A DNA stretch of 64,000 nt from a bacterium (GTDB taxonomy: Bacteria > Armatimonadota > UBA5829), in assembly GCA_021371935.1 (NCBI GenBank), contig JAJFVF010000002.1, forward strand, positions 124,001-188,000. Direction: 5' to 3'. The notes below the pieces were generated by a model. It was given only the letters and a program-made list of their open reading frames with translations. It had not been told where the DNA came from and did no database searches. How positions within the stretch are numbered: position 1 is the stretch's first letter; each line of letters starts with the position of its first letter. Of the stretch, positions 2,884 through 10,382 are shown one piece after another. The translations under genes were made by a program, and so were the position numbers.

Positions 2884-2905
2884 ACTCTCCACTCTCATAC
2901 TCTTA
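2884..2905. repeat. heptamer repeat, family A (CTCTCCA type)
   Basis: Degenerate tandem copies of a 7-base unit (ACTCTCC ACTCTCA TACTCTT) that run directly into the argG stop codon at 2903-2905. Confidence 0.7.
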
Positions 2906-4093
2906 ACTATCCTTCACCGTGCGATACATTCTCGCCTGCATGCCGTGGGTCTTCACGATCCCGACTGCCTCGCTCTGGTCAAAGGTCTTGGAATCGAATG
3001 ACGCCAGGTCTTCGTTATAGAGAGCATACTTGCTCCTGCGTCCGATGACCGTACAGCTTCCCTTAAAGAGGCGCAAGATGACATCGCCGGTGACTCTGGG
3101 CTGAATCTTATTGATAAACGCTTCCAGGTCGTCCTTGAACGGGTCATACCACAGACCCTCATAGGCGAGCTTGCCCCACTGCTGATCGACCGACACCTTG
3201 AAAGCTCTCTCTTCGGCTGTGCAGACCAAATCTTCCAGAGCCTTATGAGCCGGAATCAGGACTTTTGCCGCTGGGCACTCATAGTTCTCGCGGACCTTGA
3301 GGCCGATGATCCTATCTTCCATTATATCGACCCTGCCTACACCATTGGCCCCAGCAAGCTCGTGCACCTTAAGGACCAGATCGAGTGAGTTCATCTTCTG
3401 GCCGTTCAAAGCAACCGGCACGCCATTATCGAACGTGATGGTGATCTCAGTCGGCGTGTTAGGCGCATCCACAGGGTTCTTTGTCCAGTGGAAGATTTCT
3501 TCCGGCGGAGCGTAATCCGGCTCCTCCAGATGACCGCCCTCTATCGACCGTCCCCACAAATTCTCATCTATGGACCATATCTTGTCTTTGCTCTGGCCGA
3601 TCGGGATGCCCTTCTTTTCGGCATATTCGATCTCCCAGGTGCGGGTCATGGTGTGCTCGCGCATAGGAGCGATGATCGGCATATCAGGCATCAGAGCGCG
3701 CATTACGAACTCGATCCTGAACTGGTCATTGCCCTTGCCGGTGCAGCCATGGCAGAAGGCATCACCTTTGACTTTCTGAGCAATCTCGACTGCCTTGAGG
3801 CCTATTAGCGGCCTTGCAATAGATGTGCTGATCGGGTAGCCCTGATAATCGCCGTTGGCTTTGATCGCAGGAAAAATATACTCGTCTACAAACTCCTGCC
3901 GGGCGTCGATTGTGTAGTGCTCGGTGCCGAGCATCTTGGCCTTCTCTTCAGCCTGTTTGATCTCCGCTGCGGGCAGACCCACATCGACAGTAACGGTAAC
4001 GATATGGTCGAACCCATAGTCCTCGCGCATCATCGGGATGCACACTGATGTATCCAGCCCACCTGAGTAGACTAGGACGACTGTTTTTGGCAT
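2903..4093 (-). CDS. argG: argininosuccinate synthase
   Basis: Joins citrulline and aspartate with ATP to give argininosuccinate. About 396 residues from ATG 4093 (GGAGG seven bases upstream), the usual family length; an upstream extension to 4171 would translate repeat sequence and is rejected. The N-terminus VVLVYSGGLDTSV is the PP-loop ATP site; further on are PISTSIARPLI, CHGCTGKGNDQFR and IGQSKDKIWSIDEN, all typical of ArgG. It lies downstream of argF and the four-helix-bundle gene on the same strand. Family-A repeats touch both its 3' end and its 5' leader. Confidence 0.97.
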   Translation of the reverse strand: MPKTVVLVYSGGLDTSVCIPMMREDYGFDHIVTVTVDVGLPAAEIKQAEEKAKMLGTEHYTIDARQEFVDEYIFPAIKANGDYQGYPISTSIARPLIGLKAVEIAQKVKGDAFCHGCTGKGNDQFRIEFVMRALMPDMPIIAPMREHTMTRTWEIEYAEKKGIPIGQSKDKIWSIDENLWGRSIEGGHLEEPDYAPPEEIFHWTKNPVDAPNTPTEITITFDNGVPVALNGQKMNSLDLVLKVHELAGANGVGRVDIMEDRIIGLKVRENYECPAAKVLIPAHKALEDLVCTAEERAFKVSVDQQWGKLAYEGLWYDPFKDDLEAFINKIQPRVTGDVILRLFKGSCTVIGRRSKYALYNEDLASFDSKTFDQSEAVGIVKTHGMQARMYRTVKDS

Positions 4094-4110
4094 GATTTTC
4101 CTCCATTTTT

Positions 4111-4140
4111 GGTGGAGAGTGGAGGGTGGAGAGTGGAGAG
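4111..4140. repeat. heptamer repeat, family A
   Basis: GGTGGAGAGTGGAGGGTGGA-type 7-base units filling the gap between the four-helix-bundle stop codon (4141) and the argG ribosome site. Confidence 0.75.
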
Positions 4141-4521
4141 CTACTCGCTCGCCACTTGGTCCGTTTTCCACTTTCCAAGGCTGTTCCTAAAAGAGCTTAG
4201 CATTCTTGCAAGCTCATCAGCTTCTGAAACGATTCGTTCAAGGCAATTTACATCAATCAAGCTTTGCGCTGTTGCAATATGCAAGTGTGAAAGAGTTTCA
4301 CACAAAGAACCGTAAGCTATTTCGATAAACCGCGAGAAGTCTTTGTTGGATACTCTGGAACTACCCTCCGCAATATTGGCGCTTATCGACACTGCCGCAC
4401 GCCTCATTTGTGAAGTAAGACCAAACTGCTCTTTCATCGGAAAAGTCTCTGTTGACTTATATATCAAATTAGCAAACTCGATGCTTTTCTTCCAAATGTC
4501 CAGCTTCTCGAACCGAAACAT
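4141..4521 (-). CDS. four-helix-bundle protein (TIGR02436 / 23S rRNA intervening-sequence protein family)
   Basis: About 126 residues; FRFEKLDIWKKSIEFANLIY at the start and FGLTSQMRRAAVSISANIAEG in the middle are the hallmark of this family, first seen in insertions within bacterial 23S rRNA genes and later as scattered stand-alone genes of unknown function. ATG 4521 has AGAGG upstream. It is placed between argF and argG with a family-A repeat at each end, suggesting it arrived as a cassette together with, or into, the repeat. It has no obvious link to arginine synthesis. Confidence 0.85.
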   Translation of the reverse strand: MFRFEKLDIWKKSIEFANLIYKSTETFPMKEQFGLTSQMRRAAVSISANIAEGSSRVSNKDFSRFIEIAYGSLCETLSHLHIATAQSLIDVNCLERIVSEADELARMLSSFRNSLGKWKTDQVASE

Positions 4522-4541: not shown

Positions 4542-4575
4542 TTCTCTACTCTTAACTCTCCACACTCCACTCTTA
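4542..4575. repeat. heptamer repeat, family A
   Basis: Degenerate CTCTACT/CTTAACT/CTCCACA/CTCCACT units running into the argF stop codon (4573-4575); they form the gap before the four-helix-bundle gene. Confidence 0.7.
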
Positions 4576-5988
4576 GCCAGCTAACAGCACCATCACGGCC
4601 TTCTGCGCATGCAGCCTGTTTTCAGCCTCGTCAAAAACTACACTCTGCTTGCTGTCGATCACCTCGTCAGTGACCTCAGAGTTGCGGTGAGCGGGCAGGC
4701 AGTGCTCGAAGATCGCATCGGGTTTTGCATGCTTCATCAAACCGGCATTTACCTGGAAAGGCGCGAAAGTTTTTGCTCTCTCCGCAGCCTCGGCTTCCTG
4801 GCCCATACTCGCCCATACGTCTGTATAGACCACATCTGCATCCTTAACGGCTTCAACAGCATCGTTGAATATCTCAATCTTGGCGCCGGTCTCTTTAGCA
4901 AACTCCTTCGCCTTGGCTGTCACATTCTCATCCGGCTCATAACCCTTGGGGCAGCCGATGGCAAAGTTCATGCCTACCTTGGCGGCCAGCAGCATAAGCG
5001 AGTGAGCTACGTTGTTTCCGTCGCCTATAAATGCCAGTTTGAGTCCTTCGAACTTGCCTTTGTGCTCGAGAATCGTATAGAAATCGGCCAGAGCTTGGCA
5101 TGGGTGCTCGAGGTCGGACAAGGCATTTATCACCGGGATCCCCGCATACTCAGCAAGCCCGGTCACCTTTTCATGCTCAAAGACACGAGCCATGATGATG
5201 TCGCACATCCGCCCGATTGTCTGCGCCACATCGCCTATGCTCTCGCGCTTACCCAGACCGATATCGTTGGGCCCAAGGTATATGCCATGCCCCCCGAGCT
5301 GGAATATTCCGGTCTCGAAAGAGACCCGAGTCCGCAGGCTGGGTTTCTCAAAAATCATAGCAAGAGTCTTGCCTTCAAAAATCCTGCGCTGTCTGGACGG
5401 CGGGATGATCCCCTCCTTCAGCTTCTTGGTCATATTAAAGATAGTGTCTATCTCGGCGCGGTTGAGCTGAGAGATGCTGAGCAGGCTCTTGCCCCGCAGT
5501 TCGACCGCTGCTTCCGGTTTCTTCTCGCTGGTGAAAGCCACTCCTTCTAACAGCTTGCCGCTGCGCTGCTCAATTACCGCCTGCCTGGCCGGTTCCAACT
5601 TGACACCGAACTTGGCCAGTGTTCGTGCAGCCAGACCCTCCGGCTGCCGGATAACGCCAAGCAGCAGATGCTCCGAACAGAGCCTGTCGGCCTGCATCTC
5701 ATTGCCCTCTTCATATGCGAAATCTATTGCCCGCTTGGCACGCGGAGTAAGCTGCATGTCGCCGCCCAGATTGCCCGAGCCCCTGGCCATATTGGCCTCA
5801 AGTTCGGCTCGCAGCTCCTTTAAGTCGACTCCCAGCGAGGTCAACACCAGCGCTGCACCGCATCCTCGGTCTCTTGTCAAACCCAGCAGAATGTGCTCGA
5901 TGGAGACATTGTTGTCACCCATCTTGCCCGCTTCTTCTTGAGCGAAAAATATAACCCTCTTAGCGTGGTCAGTAAATCGTTGCCACAT
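4573..5988 (-). CDS. argF: Clp N-domain fused to ornithine carbamoyltransferase
   Basis: Single 471-residue frame from ATG 5988 (GGAG site upstream). Residues 1-143 are a full ClpC/ClpA-type N domain made of two repeats: RFTDHAKRVIFFAQEEA with SIEHILLGL, then LTPRAKRAIDFAYEE with SEHLLLGV. Residues about 163-471 are ornithine carbamoyltransferase: SLRTR carbamoyl-phosphate site (217-221), HPCQ (295-298), DVWASMGQE ornithine loop and FEHCLPAHR. The enzyme makes citrulline from ornithine and carbamoyl phosphate. T6, E31, T81 and E106 correspond to the Thr and Glu residues that hold phosphoarginine in the B. subtilis ClpC N domain. No AAA+ module follows. The fusion lies between argD and argG, and its N domain may sense arginine-like ligands or recruit a Clp machine; both are inference. 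Confidence 0.95.
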   Translation of the reverse strand: MWQRFTDHAKRVIFFAQEEAGKMGDNNVSIEHILLGLTRDRGCGAALVLTSLGVDLKELRAELEANMARGSGNLGGDMQLTPRAKRAIDFAYEEGNEMQADRLCSEHLLLGVIRQPEGLAARTLAKFGVKLEPARQAVIEQRSGKLLEGVAFTSEKKPEAAVELRGKSLLSISQLNRAEIDTIFNMTKKLKEGIIPPSRQRRIFEGKTLAMIFEKPSLRTRVSFETGIFQLGGHGIYLGPNDIGLGKRESIGDVAQTIGRMCDIIMARVFEHEKVTGLAEYAGIPVINALSDLEHPCQALADFYTILEHKGKFEGLKLAFIGDGNNVAHSLMLLAAKVGMNFAIGCPKGYEPDENVTAKAKEFAKETGAKIEIFNDAVEAVKDADVVYTDVWASMGQEAEAAERAKTFAPFQVNAGLMKHAKPDAIFEHCLPAHRNSEVTDEVIDSKQSVVFDEAENRLHAQKAVMVLLAG

Positions 5989-6125: not shown

Positions 6126-7328
6126 CTAATTATCACTCAGTATCTTCGCAATAATACTTATCGCACGGTCGACTAACTCGTTAGTCAGGATAAGTGGCGG
6201 GACGAACCGCAGCGTATTCTCACTCGTCGCGTTGATTATTAGACCGGCCTCCAGCGCCTTTGATACCAAATCTTTGGCTATGGGCTTATCAAACTCTGCT
6301 GCAACCATCAGACCCAGTCCGCGGACTTCTTTTACTCCAGGCAGTATAGCTAGTTGCTCGCGGAAATACTGCCCAACCTTAGCCGCGTTTTCGACCCAGC
6401 CGCCATCTTTTATCTCAGTAACTGCCGCTATCGCCGCCGCGCATGCTAGTGGGTTGCCGCCGAATGTAGCCGCATGGTCGCCCGGCTCAAAGACATCCGC
6501 CCATTTATCACGCGCTAGACATGCCCCCATCGGGAAACCCGCCGCTATAGTCTTGGCGAGGGTCATAACATCCGGGACAACCCCAAAGTTCTGGAACCCA
6601 AACATCTTACCCGTTCTGCCCAAGCCTGTCTGGACCTCGTCGAAGATGAGCGTTGCGCCGAACTTGTCGCACAGGTCGCGTGCTGCCTGCAAGAACTCGG
6701 CACTGGCCGGATGCACCCCGCTCTCACCCTGCACAGGCTCCATCATAATGGCGCAGGTCTTCTCGTCCACTGCGTCCTTGAGAGCTTCGATATCATTATA
6801 AGGTATATATTTGAAGCCCGGAACCAGCGGAGTAAACGACTTCTGATACTTCGGCTGGCCGGTGGCAGTAATAGCCGCCAGGGTCCGGCCATGAAATGAC
6901 TTTAATGCCGTCACTATCTCGCACTTTTCAGGGTGCCCTGATATCTTGGCCGCTTTCTTGGCTAGTTTCATTGCTGCTTCATTGGCTTCAGCTCCCGAGT
7001 TGCAGAAGAAAGCCTTACTCATCCCCGAAATCTCACACAGAATCTTGGCTAGTTTTGCCTGGCCGGGCACGTAATAGAGATTGCTGGTGTGCATAAGAGT
7101 TCCGGCCTGCTCGCGGATAGCCTCGACTACTTTGGGCGGGCAGTGCCCCAACCCATTTACTGCAATCCCTGCCACAAGGTCCAGATACTCCTTGCCATCG
7201 ATGTCATAAGCAAAGCATCCCTCACCCTTAACGAGCACTACCGGCTGCTTGCCGTAGGTTTTCATTACGTATTGATCGTACAGCGCCATTACATCGGCGC
7301 TGTTTGTCTCTGATTGTTTCGTTAGCAT
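6126..7328 (-). CDS. argD: acetylornithine aminotransferase
   Basis: PLP enzyme converting N-acetylglutamate semialdehyde to N-acetylornithine. About 400 residues from ATG 7328 (GAGGG site upstream), normal length. Motifs: NSGAEANEAAMKLAKK, SFHGRT, EPVQGESGV, IFDEVQTGLGRTGK and the PLP-lysine region TLAKTIAAGFPMGA. It lies 141 bases after argB and 138 bases before argF in the arginine operon. The lysine loop reads TIAAG rather than the commoner GLGGG, a small change not expected to stop activity. A succinyl-ornithine specificity is unlikely given its neighbours. Confidence 0.95.
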   Translation of the reverse strand: MLTKQSETNSADVMALYDQYVMKTYGKQPVVLVKGEGCFAYDIDGKEYLDLVAGIAVNGLGHCPPKVVEAIREQAGTLMHTSNLYYVPGQAKLAKILCEISGMSKAFFCNSGAEANEAAMKLAKKAAKISGHPEKCEIVTALKSFHGRTLAAITATGQPKYQKSFTPLVPGFKYIPYNDIEALKDAVDEKTCAIMMEPVQGESGVHPASAEFLQAARDLCDKFGATLIFDEVQTGLGRTGKMFGFQNFGVVPDVMTLAKTIAAGFPMGACLARDKWADVFEPGDHAATFGGNPLACAAAIAAVTEIKDGGWVENAAKVGQYFREQLAILPGVKEVRGLGLMVAAEFDKPIAKDLVSKALEAGLIINATSENTLRFVPPLILTNELVDRAISIIAKILSDN

Positions 7329-7435
7329 AAAGTGCCCTCTTTCATTTATAAAGCAGATTCCTCGCATCTGCTCGGAATGACTCGATTATTAGTCTCACTA
7401 AGTGATAGAACGTTAACTGTTAGCAGCCGGTCTGG

Positions 7436-7469: not shown

Positions 7470-8327
7470 TCAAGGCACAATCATCGTCCCGATGCCTGTA
7501 TCCGTAAATATCTCCATCAACAGAGAGTGAGGCATGGTGCCGTCTATGATGTGCGTACGCTCGACGGCGCCCGCAAGCGCCGTCATACAAGCCTCCACCT
7601 TTGGGATCATGCCCTTGTCTATCTGTTTGGTCTTTATCATCTGCTTCGCGTCCGCCACCTTTAGTTCGGATATAAAGGTTGACTTATCGCTAAAGTCTGA
7701 GTATATACCCGGCACGTCGGTCATCATCATGAGCTTGGTCGCACCTACCTCAGCGGCAATCTCACCCGCGATATGATCGGCATTAACATTAAAACTCTCG
7801 CCGTTCGGACCGATCGCAACAGAAGATATTACAGGTATATAGTTATGCTCCAGCAGATCGTTCAGGATCATCGGATTGACCTTGGCTACCTGACCGACAA
7901 AGCCCAGATCAACGTCACTGTCCGCCTTTTGGGCGACAATTAGATTTGCATCCTTGCCTGAAAGGCCAACTGACCGCCCGCCAAGATTGTTAATAATCGA
8001 GACGATGCCCTTGTTCGTCTTGCCGGCAAGAACCATTTCGACTATCTCCATGGTCTCGGCGTCAGTTACCCGCCTGCCGCCGACGAATTCGGGTTCCTTG
8101 CCCAGCTTCTGCATAACTGCGCTGATCTCAGGTCCGCCTCCATGAACAAGGATCGGTTTCATACCTACATAATGCATAAGCACGACATCCTTGCACACGC
8201 CGACCTTCAGATCATCGTCGATCATGGCGTTGCCGCCGTATTTGATGACTATTATCTTTCCGGCATAGTGCTGTATATACGGCAGCGCCTGGACAAGTAT
8301 ATTAGCCTGCTCGCTTGTATAGTTCAT
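7470..8327 (-). CDS. argB: acetylglutamate kinase
   Basis: Phosphorylates N-acetylglutamate, the committed step. 285 residues from ATG 8327 with GGAGTGAG upstream. IVIKYGGNAM and ILVHGGGPEI are the nucleotide and substrate glycine loops; the C-terminus PKVEACMTALAGAV..IIDGTMPHSLLMEIFTDTGIGTMI is the form found in arginine-inhibited kinases, and the N-terminal helix before the first strand is also present. So feedback inhibition by arginine is likely. It is the first gene of the arginine operon; upstream lie the Arg leader peptide and terminator. argC and argJ are not in this window. Confidence 0.96.
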   Translation of the reverse strand: MNYTSEQANILVQALPYIQHYAGKIIVIKYGGNAMIDDDLKVGVCKDVVLMHYVGMKPILVHGGGPEISAVMQKLGKEPEFVGGRRVTDAETMEIVEMVLAGKTNKGIVSIINNLGGRSVGLSGKDANLIVAQKADSDVDLGFVGQVAKVNPMILNDLLEHNYIPVISSVAIGPNGESFNVNADHIAGEIAAEVGATKLMMMTDVPGIYSDFSDKSTFISELKVADAKQMIKTKQIDKGMIPKVEACMTALAGAVERTHIIDGTMPHSLLMEIFTDTGIGTMIVP

Positions 8328-8350
8328 GGTCTCACTCCATTGTGTTCTCG

Positions 8351-8370
8351 CCCTCCAGGTAAGATACCTG
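8351..8370. repeat. 20-bp dispersed repeat forming a hairpin in the argB leader
   Basis: CCCTCCAGGTAAGATACCTG is identical at 62618-62637. Here it continues to AAGGG, giving an 11-bp hairpin (one G-U pair, three-base loop) between the Arg terminator and the argB ribosome site. Confidence 0.65.
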
Positions 8371-8430
8371 AAGGGATACTTAATTCTCACTCAACATGGT
8401 ATCTGTCCGCCACCTCTGAGTCAACAACAC

Positions 8431-8461
8431 AAAAAGGCCGCGGATACTATAACCCGCGGCC
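8431..8461 (-). terminator. intrinsic terminator of the Arg attenuator
   Basis: On the minus strand GGCCGCGG (8461-8454), a 10-base loop, CCGCGGCC (8443-8436), then TTTTT. It lies 26 bases past the Arg leader peptide stop and upstream of argB. Its 5' arm can instead pair perfectly with CCGCGGCC inside the leader peptide codons (8517-8510), giving a mutually exclusive antiterminator. Confidence 0.85.
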
Positions 8462-8487
8462 TGACGATATCTAAGGCATGATATATC

Positions 8488-8604
8488 TTAAAGTGGACGC
8501 ATCCCCTCCGGCCGCGGCAAGTACGTACGACGAGCACGCAGTCTGCGAACCTTTGCGCTTGTCTTAAGGCCGGTATACGGTTTTGTCATATCAAATGGCA
8601 TCAT
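8488..8604 (-). CDS. arginine-rich leader peptide of the arg operon
   Basis: 38 codons (ATG ATG at 8604/8601, AGGA six bases upstream) ending in TAA. The second half KVRRLRARRTYLPRPEGMRP contains seven arginines in eighteen codons (CGC, AGA, CGT, CGT, CGT, CGG, CGT). It sits between a consensus promoter (8633-8661) and an intrinsic terminator (8431-8461), upstream of the arginine operon. Stalling for lack of charged tRNA-Arg at the five clustered Arg codons would leave the downstream CCGCGGCC free to open the terminator. No domain or homologue is recognised; the role as attenuator peptide is inferred from layout and pairing. Confidence 0.8.
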   Translation of the reverse strand: MMPFDMTKPYTGLKTSAKVRRLRARRTYLPRPEGMRPL

Positions 8605-8632
8605 TATATTCCTATTATGGCCAACCATCGTG

Positions 8633-8661
8633 ATTTTAACAGTTAGCCTGGGGATTGTCAA
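8633..8661 (-). promoter_or_regulatory. promoter of the Arg leader / arg operon
   Basis: On the minus strand TTGACA (8661-8656), 17-base spacer, TAAAAT (8638-8633): near-consensus sigma-70 promoter. The predicted start lies some twenty bases upstream of the leader ATG. Its -35 box is one arm of an 11-bp inverted repeat whose other arm is the -35 of the thrS promoter. Confidence 0.85.
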
Positions 8662-8679
8662 ATTTTCAGTGTGCAAAAT

Positions 8680-8708
8680 TTGACATTGCTCATTTTCGCT
8701 GATATACT
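8680..8708 (+). promoter_or_regulatory. promoter of the Thr leader / thrS
   Basis: TTGACA (8680-8685), 17-base spacer, TATACT (8703-8708). It diverges from the arg promoter; the two -35 boxes lie in the inverted repeat TGTCAAATTTT (8656-8666) / AAAATTTGACA (8675-8685) with eight bases between the arms. Confidence 0.88.
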
Positions 8709-8742
8709 CACCTTAAGTATGCTAGTGAAAGGAGGACGTGAA

Positions 8743-8838
8743 ATGAACATGGCGCTGACTAATAACACCGCTAATTTTGTGTGCACTACCATGCACACTA
8801 ATAGTATTGCACGTCCCCCTGAGCAGCGGCATACATAA
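8743..8838 (+). CDS. threonine-containing leader peptide of thrS
   Basis: 31 codons from ATG 8743 behind a strong AAAGGAGG site, ending TAA. Six codons are Thr (codons 6, 9, 15, 16, 19, 31), with a TTMHT cluster (codons 15-19) placed before the region that can pair with the downstream terminator. A promoter lies 35 bases upstream of the start and a strong intrinsic terminator 27 bases after the stop, before thrS. This is the layout of a ribosome-mediated attenuator responding to charged tRNA-Thr. The peptide itself resembles no known protein. Confidence 0.75.
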   Translation: MNMALTNNTANFVCTTMHTNSIARPPEQRHT

Positions 8839-8864
8839 CCCATTTCTTATAATCAGAAGTTCAA

Positions 8865-8895
8865 AGGCCGCTTCTTTCAGGGAAGCGGCCTTTTT
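8865..8895 (+). terminator. intrinsic terminator of the Thr attenuator
   Basis: AGGCCGCTTC / GAAGCGGCCT, ten perfect base pairs with a seven-base loop, then TTTT. It lies between the leader peptide stop and thrS. The 5' arm GCCGCT (8867-8872) can pair with AGCGGC (8825-8830) in the last leader codons, extended by three further pairs after one mismatch: a candidate antiterminator. Confidence 0.88.
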
Positions 8896-8930
8896 AGTCA
8901 ACCAATATGCAGATAAAGGCGGACGGATGA

Positions 8931-10382
8931 ATGGAAAATAAACGTAAACCCAGCGAATTCACACGGTTTGTTATTGCTGACCTCAGAGGTAATCAATATG
9001 AGGTTACTGCCGATAGTTATGCTAAATGCCCGGCGCTTCGCCGTCACGAACCTGTTTATGGATTGCTGAGACAGTTCGTTTCAAATGAGCTTGGTCACAA
9101 GACCCAGACCGAGGGCGTTCCAAAACATATCGAATATATGCGCCGCCACGAGCTTGTGGACTACTGCGATGTATCAGAGAAAGGTCACTATAAATGGTAC
9201 CCAAATGGGCTTCTGATGCAGCGATTGATCCTGGACTATGCAGCCGATCTTGCTCGCGACTGGGGGGCATTTGAGATGAAAAACCCGCTTGTTATTCGAG
9301 GCGATTCGAACATAGTCGGTGAGCTGATGGGGGAGTTTCACGAACGGGACTATAGAGTGGATGGCGGCAGAGGCATCGGCTATCTTCGCTACGCATCAGA
9401 TCCGTTGGCTTTTCCATTCATGCAGGGCGTGCGGTTTACTTACAAACAAACGCCGCTAAAGGTCTACGAAGAGGCCACATGCTTTCGCAACGAGCAGGAG
9501 GGTGAAGTAAGCGGCCTCAAGCGCGTACGCAATTTTATGATGACTGATATGCATGCCGCATGCGCTTCGGCAGAACAAGCAAAAACCGAATTTGAGAACC
9601 TCTGTCTGCGATTTGCAGATTTGATGAACCATATCATAGCGCAGGGCCGATGGGTCCTCGGATGGGAAGGGACAATTGACTTTTTTGAGGAAAATCAAGA
9701 CTGGCTAGTCGGTCTTGGAGTGCAAATGAATGTGCCCGCTTTTTTTAAGCTGATGCCTCAAATGAGCCATTATTACGCAATCAAAAACGAGTTCCAGAGT
9801 ATTACGCAGGATAAGTCCAATGTCCAGGTGAGTACCGTGCAGTGGGACGTGAAGGATGGAAAGAGGTTCGATATAGGCTTTATTGATGAGGACGGTCAAA
9901 AGCGCCCGTGCCCTGTGATTATTCATGCATCGAGCTTCGGCAGCATAGAGCGGACACTGTGCGCGATCCTCGAAAACATCGCTATCGACTCGGAATCGGG
10001 AATCAAACCCGCATTCCCGATGTGGCTGTCGCCGACACAGGTCAGGCTTATCCCGGTCTCGGATGACTATCTGGAACTGTCACAAAAGATTTGCGATACC
10101 CTATCATCAGCGTGCATACGGGTGGATATAGACGACCACAGTGAGACAGTCGGTAAGAAGATAAGACGCAGTGAGCAGGATTGGGTCCCTTACACGGTGG
10201 TTTTGGGTGAAAAAGAGCAGGCGTCAGGAATACTTACAGTTAGAGAACGCAGCGGCGGCGGTCAAAAGATACTCGGCCTGGAAGAGCTTGCGGATTCTGT
10301 TCGGGTCAAAACACAAAAAATGCCATCCCGTCCTTTGCCGATGCCTGTCCTATTAAGCAGGAGGCCAATATTCTATGGATAA
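8931..10382 (+). CDS. thrS: threonyl-tRNA synthetase, short archaeal-like form
   Basis: Class II aminoacyl-tRNA synthetase of 483 residues; loads Thr on tRNA-Thr. TGS and editing domains of ordinary bacterial ThrRS are absent. Catalytic core: VYEEATCFRNEQEGEVSGLKRVRNF with TDMHAAC, and VIIHASSFGSIERTL; then the anticodon-binding domain WLSPTQVRLIPVSDDYLE..VDIDDHSETVGKKIRRSEQDWVPYTVVLG. The His ligands of the usual zinc site are recognisable (TDMH, IIHA), but the Cys expected in the preceding loop is not visible (YASDPLAFPFMQG). The Thr-rich leader supports threonine specificity. The last eight bases overlap the next gene. Misacylation may be corrected in trans, or a second ThrRS may exist elsewhere. 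Confidence 0.82.
   Translation: MENKRKPSEFTRFVIADLRGNQYEVTADSYAKCPALRRHEPVYGLLRQFVSNELGHKTQTEGVPKHIEYMRRHELVDYCDVSEKGHYKWYPNGLLMQRLILDYAADLARDWGAFEMKNPLVIRGDSNIVGELMGEFHERDYRVDGGRGIGYLRYASDPLAFPFMQGVRFTYKQTPLKVYEEATCFRNEQEGEVSGLKRVRNFMMTDMHAACASAEQAKTEFENLCLRFADLMNHIIAQGRWVLGWEGTIDFFEENQDWLVGLGVQMNVPAFFKLMPQMSHYYAIKNEFQSITQDKSNVQVSTVQWDVKDGKRFDIGFIDEDGQKRPCPVIIHASSFGSIERTLCAILENIAIDSESGIKPAFPMWLSPTQVRLIPVSDDYLELSQKICDTLSSACIRVDIDDHSETVGKKIRRSEQDWVPYTVVLGEKEQASGILTVRERSGGGQKILGLEELADSVRVKTQKMPSRPLPMPVLLSRRPIFYG

Follow-up and report, generated by a model that had tools for sequence, protein, structure and literature searches.

Classical transcription attenuation has been described for the his, trp, thr, leu, ilv and phe operons. 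In these systems, with E. coli trp as the model, and likewise in pheST, a short open reading frame rich in the amino acid of the pathway lies in front of an intrinsic terminator that precedes the first gene, the terminator and an antiterminator are mutually exclusive, and the position of the ribosome acts as the switch. An arginine-specific upstream peptide on an arginine-pathway gene is known from fungi (arg-2/CPA1), but this arginine attenuator peptide causes eukaryotic translational arrest at high arginine, and its mechanism is unrelated to attenuation in bacteria. Leader-peptide systems were known only from Proteobacteria and Actinobacteria before a survey of 2010 added examples from Firmicutes (PMC2965389). 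A comparative study on Actinobacteria refers to attenuators of his, thr and phe and, for other bacteria, to T-boxes of arginine genes; it reports no RNA element, and no arginine attenuator, on the arginine operons of that phylum (PMC1262725).

Arg codons in a leader have been shown to sense arginine in other settings. In Salmonella, those of orf34 do so via ribosome pausing upstream of speF (PMC6386406); this system, however, controls an ornithine decarboxylase rather than arginine biosynthesis, acts through Rho, occlusion of the ribosome-binding site and RNase G, and has no intrinsic terminator. The leader peptide rbfL of S. aureus also senses arginine limitation through its Arg codons (PMC13009471), but it is eight residues long and acts at the translational level, the stalled ribosome blocking the ribosome-binding site of a biofilm regulator and lowering its expression. 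A leader peptide before carA of P. aeruginosa, a gene that feeds arginine synthesis, is mentioned in PMC4997734; according to that mention, attenuation is attributed to pyrimidines and arginine acts at the transcriptional level. Finally, the arginine T-boxes of Firmicutes, as noted in PMC1262725, control arginine genes by tRNA charging, but there the RNA binds uncharged tRNA directly and no leader peptide is involved. The first-pass annotation of the locus studied here named no well-known arg case of leader-peptide attenuation; in the searchable papers (these include few subscription papers, and absence is no proof) we likewise came across no arginine biosynthesis operon with a classical attenuator, and Arg-codon leaders were found only for speF and rbf.

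The window analyzed here comprises 64,000 nucleotides of an Armatimonadota genome (UBA5829; assembly GCA_021371935.1, contig JAJFVF010000002.1, positions 124,001-188,000). On its minus strand, a leader unit lies upstream of argB, and argD, argF and argG follow on the same strand (Table 1). We propose, with a probability of about 0.8, that this leader is a ribosome-mediated transcription attenuator responding to charged tRNA-Arg, because of the conservation of its Arg cluster, the folds computed with a ribosome footprint, the lack of a detectable arginine repressor and the further leaders, for Trp and Thr, that this lineage has. We also lean towards the broader view that this is the first classical leader-peptide attenuator for an arginine biosynthesis operon, found in a lineage with no detectable ArgR (a genus and a sister genus), and that arg, trp and a thrS are all ribosome-attenuated within the genus. 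The mechanism itself is known; what is new is the amino acid, arginine, and the phylum. If true, the scheme goes beyond the textbook amino acids and phyla. The arg leader would differ from the classical attenuators in sensing arginine, in having a second, unattenuated promoter downstream and in its armatimonadotal host; moreover, its segment 2 is part of the ORF, some 20 bases ahead of the stop codon, whereas that of trp comes after the stop.

Table 1. Predicted features of the arg leader region and of the arg genes in the window.
Feature	Position	Strand	Details
P1, leader promoter	8633..8661	-	TTGACA-17-TAAAAT, TG before the -10 element; 11 of 12 matches
Shine-Dalgarno sequence of the leader	8613-8610	-	AGGA
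Leader peptide ORF and stop codon	8488..8604	-	MMPFDMTKPYTGLKTSAKVRRLRARRTYLPRPEGMRPL; 38 codons, ATG at 8604, stop at 8490-8488
Arg codon cluster	8527..8547	-	codons 20-26 (R R L R A R R); proposed stall site
Candidate segment 1	8568..8573	-	CCGGCC, codons 11-13; can pair with GGCCGG at 8513-8508
Segment 2, antiterminator 5' strand	8508..8517	-	CCGCGGCCGG; from pairing and ribosome-footprint folds
Segment 3, terminator 5' arm and antiterminator 3' strand	8454..8461	-	GGCCGCGG; from pairing and folds
Intrinsic terminator hairpin and T run	8431..8462	-	100% paired in five genomes
P2, second promoter	8396..8424	-	TTGACT-17-TACCAT; between terminator and argB
argB	7470..8327	-	acetylglutamate kinase; start at 8327
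argD	6126..7367	-	acetylornithine transaminase
argF	4573..5988	-	ornithine carbamoyltransferase with an N-terminal Clp_N domain
argG	2903..4171	-	argininosuccinate synthase

The promoter, strong and close to consensus, the 38-codon Arg-rich peptide and the intrinsic terminator before argB were all found where the first-pass annotation had placed them. These predicted elements, as well as the Arg codons, both pairings, the second promoter and the lack of a detectable ArgR, are read from the sequence and its conservation. The combination of TTGACA with TA(A/C)AAT recurs upstream of the leader in the five other genomes. A promoter and a translatable short ORF lie upstream of the operon. Between argF, in which Clp_N is fused N-terminally to the ornithine carbamoyltransferase, and argG there is a gene for a 23S rRNA-intervening-sequence protein (PF05635; 4141-4539, minus strand).

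The leader of the window has seven Arg in 38 codons (codons 20, 21, 23, 25, 26, 31 and 36), against 4.7% Arg in the neighboring genes (binomial P 0.0018). When a profile of the peptide was searched against 291 genomes of the phylum, each of the five genomes of the genus (G000-G004) and one genome of a sister genus (G005) yielded a homologue; elsewhere among the 291 genomes there was no convincing homologue, other matches being weak. The best match outside the two genera (G044, E 1e-5) was rejected, as it falls inside long coding frames, secretin-like by eye, with no arg gene downstream. Five leaders are complete, each of exactly 38 codons and each upstream of argB; the contig of G003 ends just past the leader, before the terminator and argB, and this genome was left out of the pairing and fold sets. 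Other Arg-rich ORFs with terminators were sought in the fetched neighborhoods of argB, argC and thrS, which yielded only these leaders and apparent chance matches.

All six homologues carry 6 to 9 Arg codons, clustered just upstream of the antiterminator segment. Codons 23 and 26 specify Arg in six of six leaders and codons 20 and 25 in five of six, while the neighboring codons 19, 24 and 27 vary in amino acid and the first 18 codons diverge freely. The Arg codons swap synonymously between genomes (CGT/CGC/CGA), and codon 25, which is CGT in four genomes, is AGA in G001, a two-base difference that retains Arg. The codons for arginine, the product of the operon, are conserved as codons. In the leader of G005 the cluster is rearranged (KRRFGRRERSR) with Arg density unchanged. 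The first-pass annotation had named relatives that keep the hairpin but lose the Arg codons as evidence against its reading; we found the opposite, and in the five complete leaders the hairpin is retained as well, along with the greater part of the alternative pairing. A dN/dS ratio is not informative for the leader, some of which is under no constraint and some of which also serves in RNA pairing. CGT, a minor codon for Arg in the genes of the window (14% of the Arg codons in its large ORFs), is over-represented in the leaders (window and homologues L114-L118), where it accounts for 3-5 of the 6-9 Arg codons in each.

As in trp, three helices are possible in the leader RNA: 1:2, formed by codons 11-13 with GGCCGG; 2:3; and the terminator, 3:4. 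As noted in the first-pass annotation, CCGCGGCC in the leader codons (8517-8510) is a perfect complement of GGCCGCGG in the terminator 5' arm (8461-8454). Across the five genomes, the fraction of paired cells was 93% for 1:2, 92.5% for 2:3 and 100% for 3:4. The terminator hairpin (8462-8435; -21.5 kcal/mol) is followed directly by the T run, lies between the leader and the first structural gene in all five complete leaders, and shows a compensatory change from G-C to A-U on both sides in two of the five genomes; in helices 1:2 and 2:3 the changes are mostly C to U, with a wobble pair kept. Sliding the partners by 1-3 columns lowered pairing to 17-65%; the pairing shuffle controls comprised five sequences only and so had little power. 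The pairing strength with the terminator 5' arm in the window was equalled by 8 of 1000 base shuffles and by 61 of 1000 synonymous recodings. Because recodings match it that often, we regard the 2:3 pairing on its own as modest evidence; it is conservation that carries the case. The strength of 2:3 was equalled by 5-26% of synonymous recodings, and the pairing is weak in G002 (-14.5 kcal/mol, equalled by 259 of 1000 shuffles).

We then folded the RNA from 12 bases beyond the first A-site base to the start of the terminator 3' arm. In all five complete leaders, the computed probability of the antiterminator exceeded 0.7 while the ribosome occupied codons 20-25, where capture of segment 3 by segment 2 amounted to 0.85 or more; capture dropped at codons 26-28 and was at most 0.01 at codon 29 and beyond. 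In most leaders, codon 26 is the last Arg of the cluster. The first-pass annotation had suggested that a ribosome stalled at the Arg cluster would leave the complement of the terminator 5' arm free, and the computed folds bear this out, favoring the antiterminator in five of five cases. By folds and pairing, then, an antiterminator that excludes the terminator is predicted to be freed by a stalled ribosome, weakly so in G002. With the terminator 3' arm included, the terminator was preferred at equilibrium for nearly all ribosome positions; therefore, antitermination must be kinetic. The same calculation for the E. coli trp leader, whose sequence was checked against an E. coli collection, gave 0.61 for a ribosome at the Trp codons and 0.34 for one at the stop, which is the expected direction. 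In the untranslated arg leader 2:3 is predicted to form (0.67-1.0), as opposed to 0.12 for trp. The pairing of 1:2, the candidate protector hairpin that would give termination when the leader is not translated, is conserved, but in the fold model 2:3 is not displaced by it.

We infer that the leader is translated, that ribosomes stall in it, that RNA polymerase can read through and that the operon is one transcript. The leader ORF of the P1 transcript would be translated while it emerges. When arginine is ample, the ribosome would pass codon 27 and either cover segment 2 (codons 30-33) or rest on the stop codon, which lies between segments 2 and 3; in both cases 3:4 would form and transcription would end before argB. 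When charged tRNA-Arg is short, the ribosome would stall at the Arg cluster (about codons 19-26), and segment 2, left free, would capture the terminator 5' arm while the 3' arm is still to be made, allowing RNA polymerase to enter argB-argD-argF-argG. In several genomes P2, located after the terminator, may provide transcription that is independent of arginine or under some other control.

P2 was not part of the first-pass annotation. Its consensus, TTGAC-17-TAnnAT, can be aligned in seven genomes: it is present in the leader-bearing G000, G002 and G004, and in four relatives without a leader it is the apparent argB promoter. Because P2 also aligns in the leaderless relatives, it seems to be the older element, with the attenuated unit added ahead of it. 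For the same reason, control by the attenuator is probably partial, P2 probably bypassing it in G000, G002 and G004. The exception is G001: it lost P2, and about 30 bases separate the terminator from the start of argB, so that the operon would most obviously be reached by read-through. The leaderless relatives and the genome without P2 form a natural series for an attenuator arriving before an existing promoter. The attenuator reading of the first-pass annotation thus holds as regards the retention of the Arg codons, the hairpin and the alternative pairing, and ArgR went undetected, but it is qualified by the probable bypass through P2.

The conservation of P2 in G000, G002, G004 and the four leaderless relatives would also suit an arrangement in which the leader is a small transcription unit of its own, specifying a small basic protein or an RNA and ending at its own terminator, with argB driven by P2 alone. 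We think this unlikely: divergence is free in the N-terminal half of the peptide, which is odd for a functional protein, P2 is lost in G001 with argB directly after the terminator, and both the linkage to argB and the match between the codons and the product of the pathway would be coincidence, although the Trp and Thr leaders of the lineage match likewise. It is also conceivable that the nascent peptide stalls the ribosome upon encountering a small molecule, be it free arginine, a polyamine or, via R-L-R, a macrolide, and so causes antitermination. Arg-Leu-Arg is known from antibiotic-responsive leader peptides (PMC8632094) and occurs at codons 21-23 in three genomes; however, the motif reads S-L-R in G003 and G002 and is absent in G005, with Arg density kept, and the conservation of codon identity amid diverging neighbors fits charged-tRNA sensing better, which makes such an arrest quite improbable in our view. 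A macrolide-type R-L-R arrest peptide in particular was rejected, the motif being kept in three of the six leaders.

That 5-26% of synonymous recodings equal the pairing strength alone would be compatible with a constitutive element, in which leader and terminator fix the fraction of read-through with no sensing of arginine. Yet the Arg codons survive synonymous and two-base changes and the spacing from the cluster to the antiterminator is conserved, and we give this explanation very little credence. Attenuation by charged tRNA-Arg is therefore the reading we retain, on the grounds given above. As for other regulators, the domain PF02863 (Arg_repressor_C) was absent from 15 of 15 genomes of the family and present in all eight control genomes; an ArgR regulon was discarded accordingly. 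No Rfam match, T-box included, was obtained up to an E-value of 1 at 8300-8960 of the window, and a T-box riboswitch was ruled out for lack of the consensus fold. No such leader was found before argC, which lies elsewhere in the genome; among chosen genes of the genus at which other leaders were sought, ilvB, hisG and pheS gave none.

A scan of the window yielded eight ORF-terminator pairs; a bias for one amino acid together with a matching downstream gene was seen in the arg and thr leaders only. The divergent neighbor, thrS, is preceded by a Thr-rich leader, MNMALTNNTANFVCTTMHTNSIARPPEQRHT, with a promoter and a terminator (8680-8897, plus strand), which is conserved in G003 (L140). Its geometry is like that of the arg leader: the antiterminator is lost once the Thr-rich stretch has been passed, at about codon 25 (of 31) in G000 and codon 29 (of 35) in G003. 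In G000, G002 and G003, trpE has a conserved leader with Trp-Gly-Trp (WGW) and two tandem terminator-like hairpins (loci L162-L164). By eye, the same Trp leader appears before a trpS-like gene in G001 (L165). The ThrRS of the window (8931-10382, plus strand) is of the archaeal type, without the N-terminal part, and occurs in only 2 of the 15 family genomes; possibly, it is an acquired second ThrRS.
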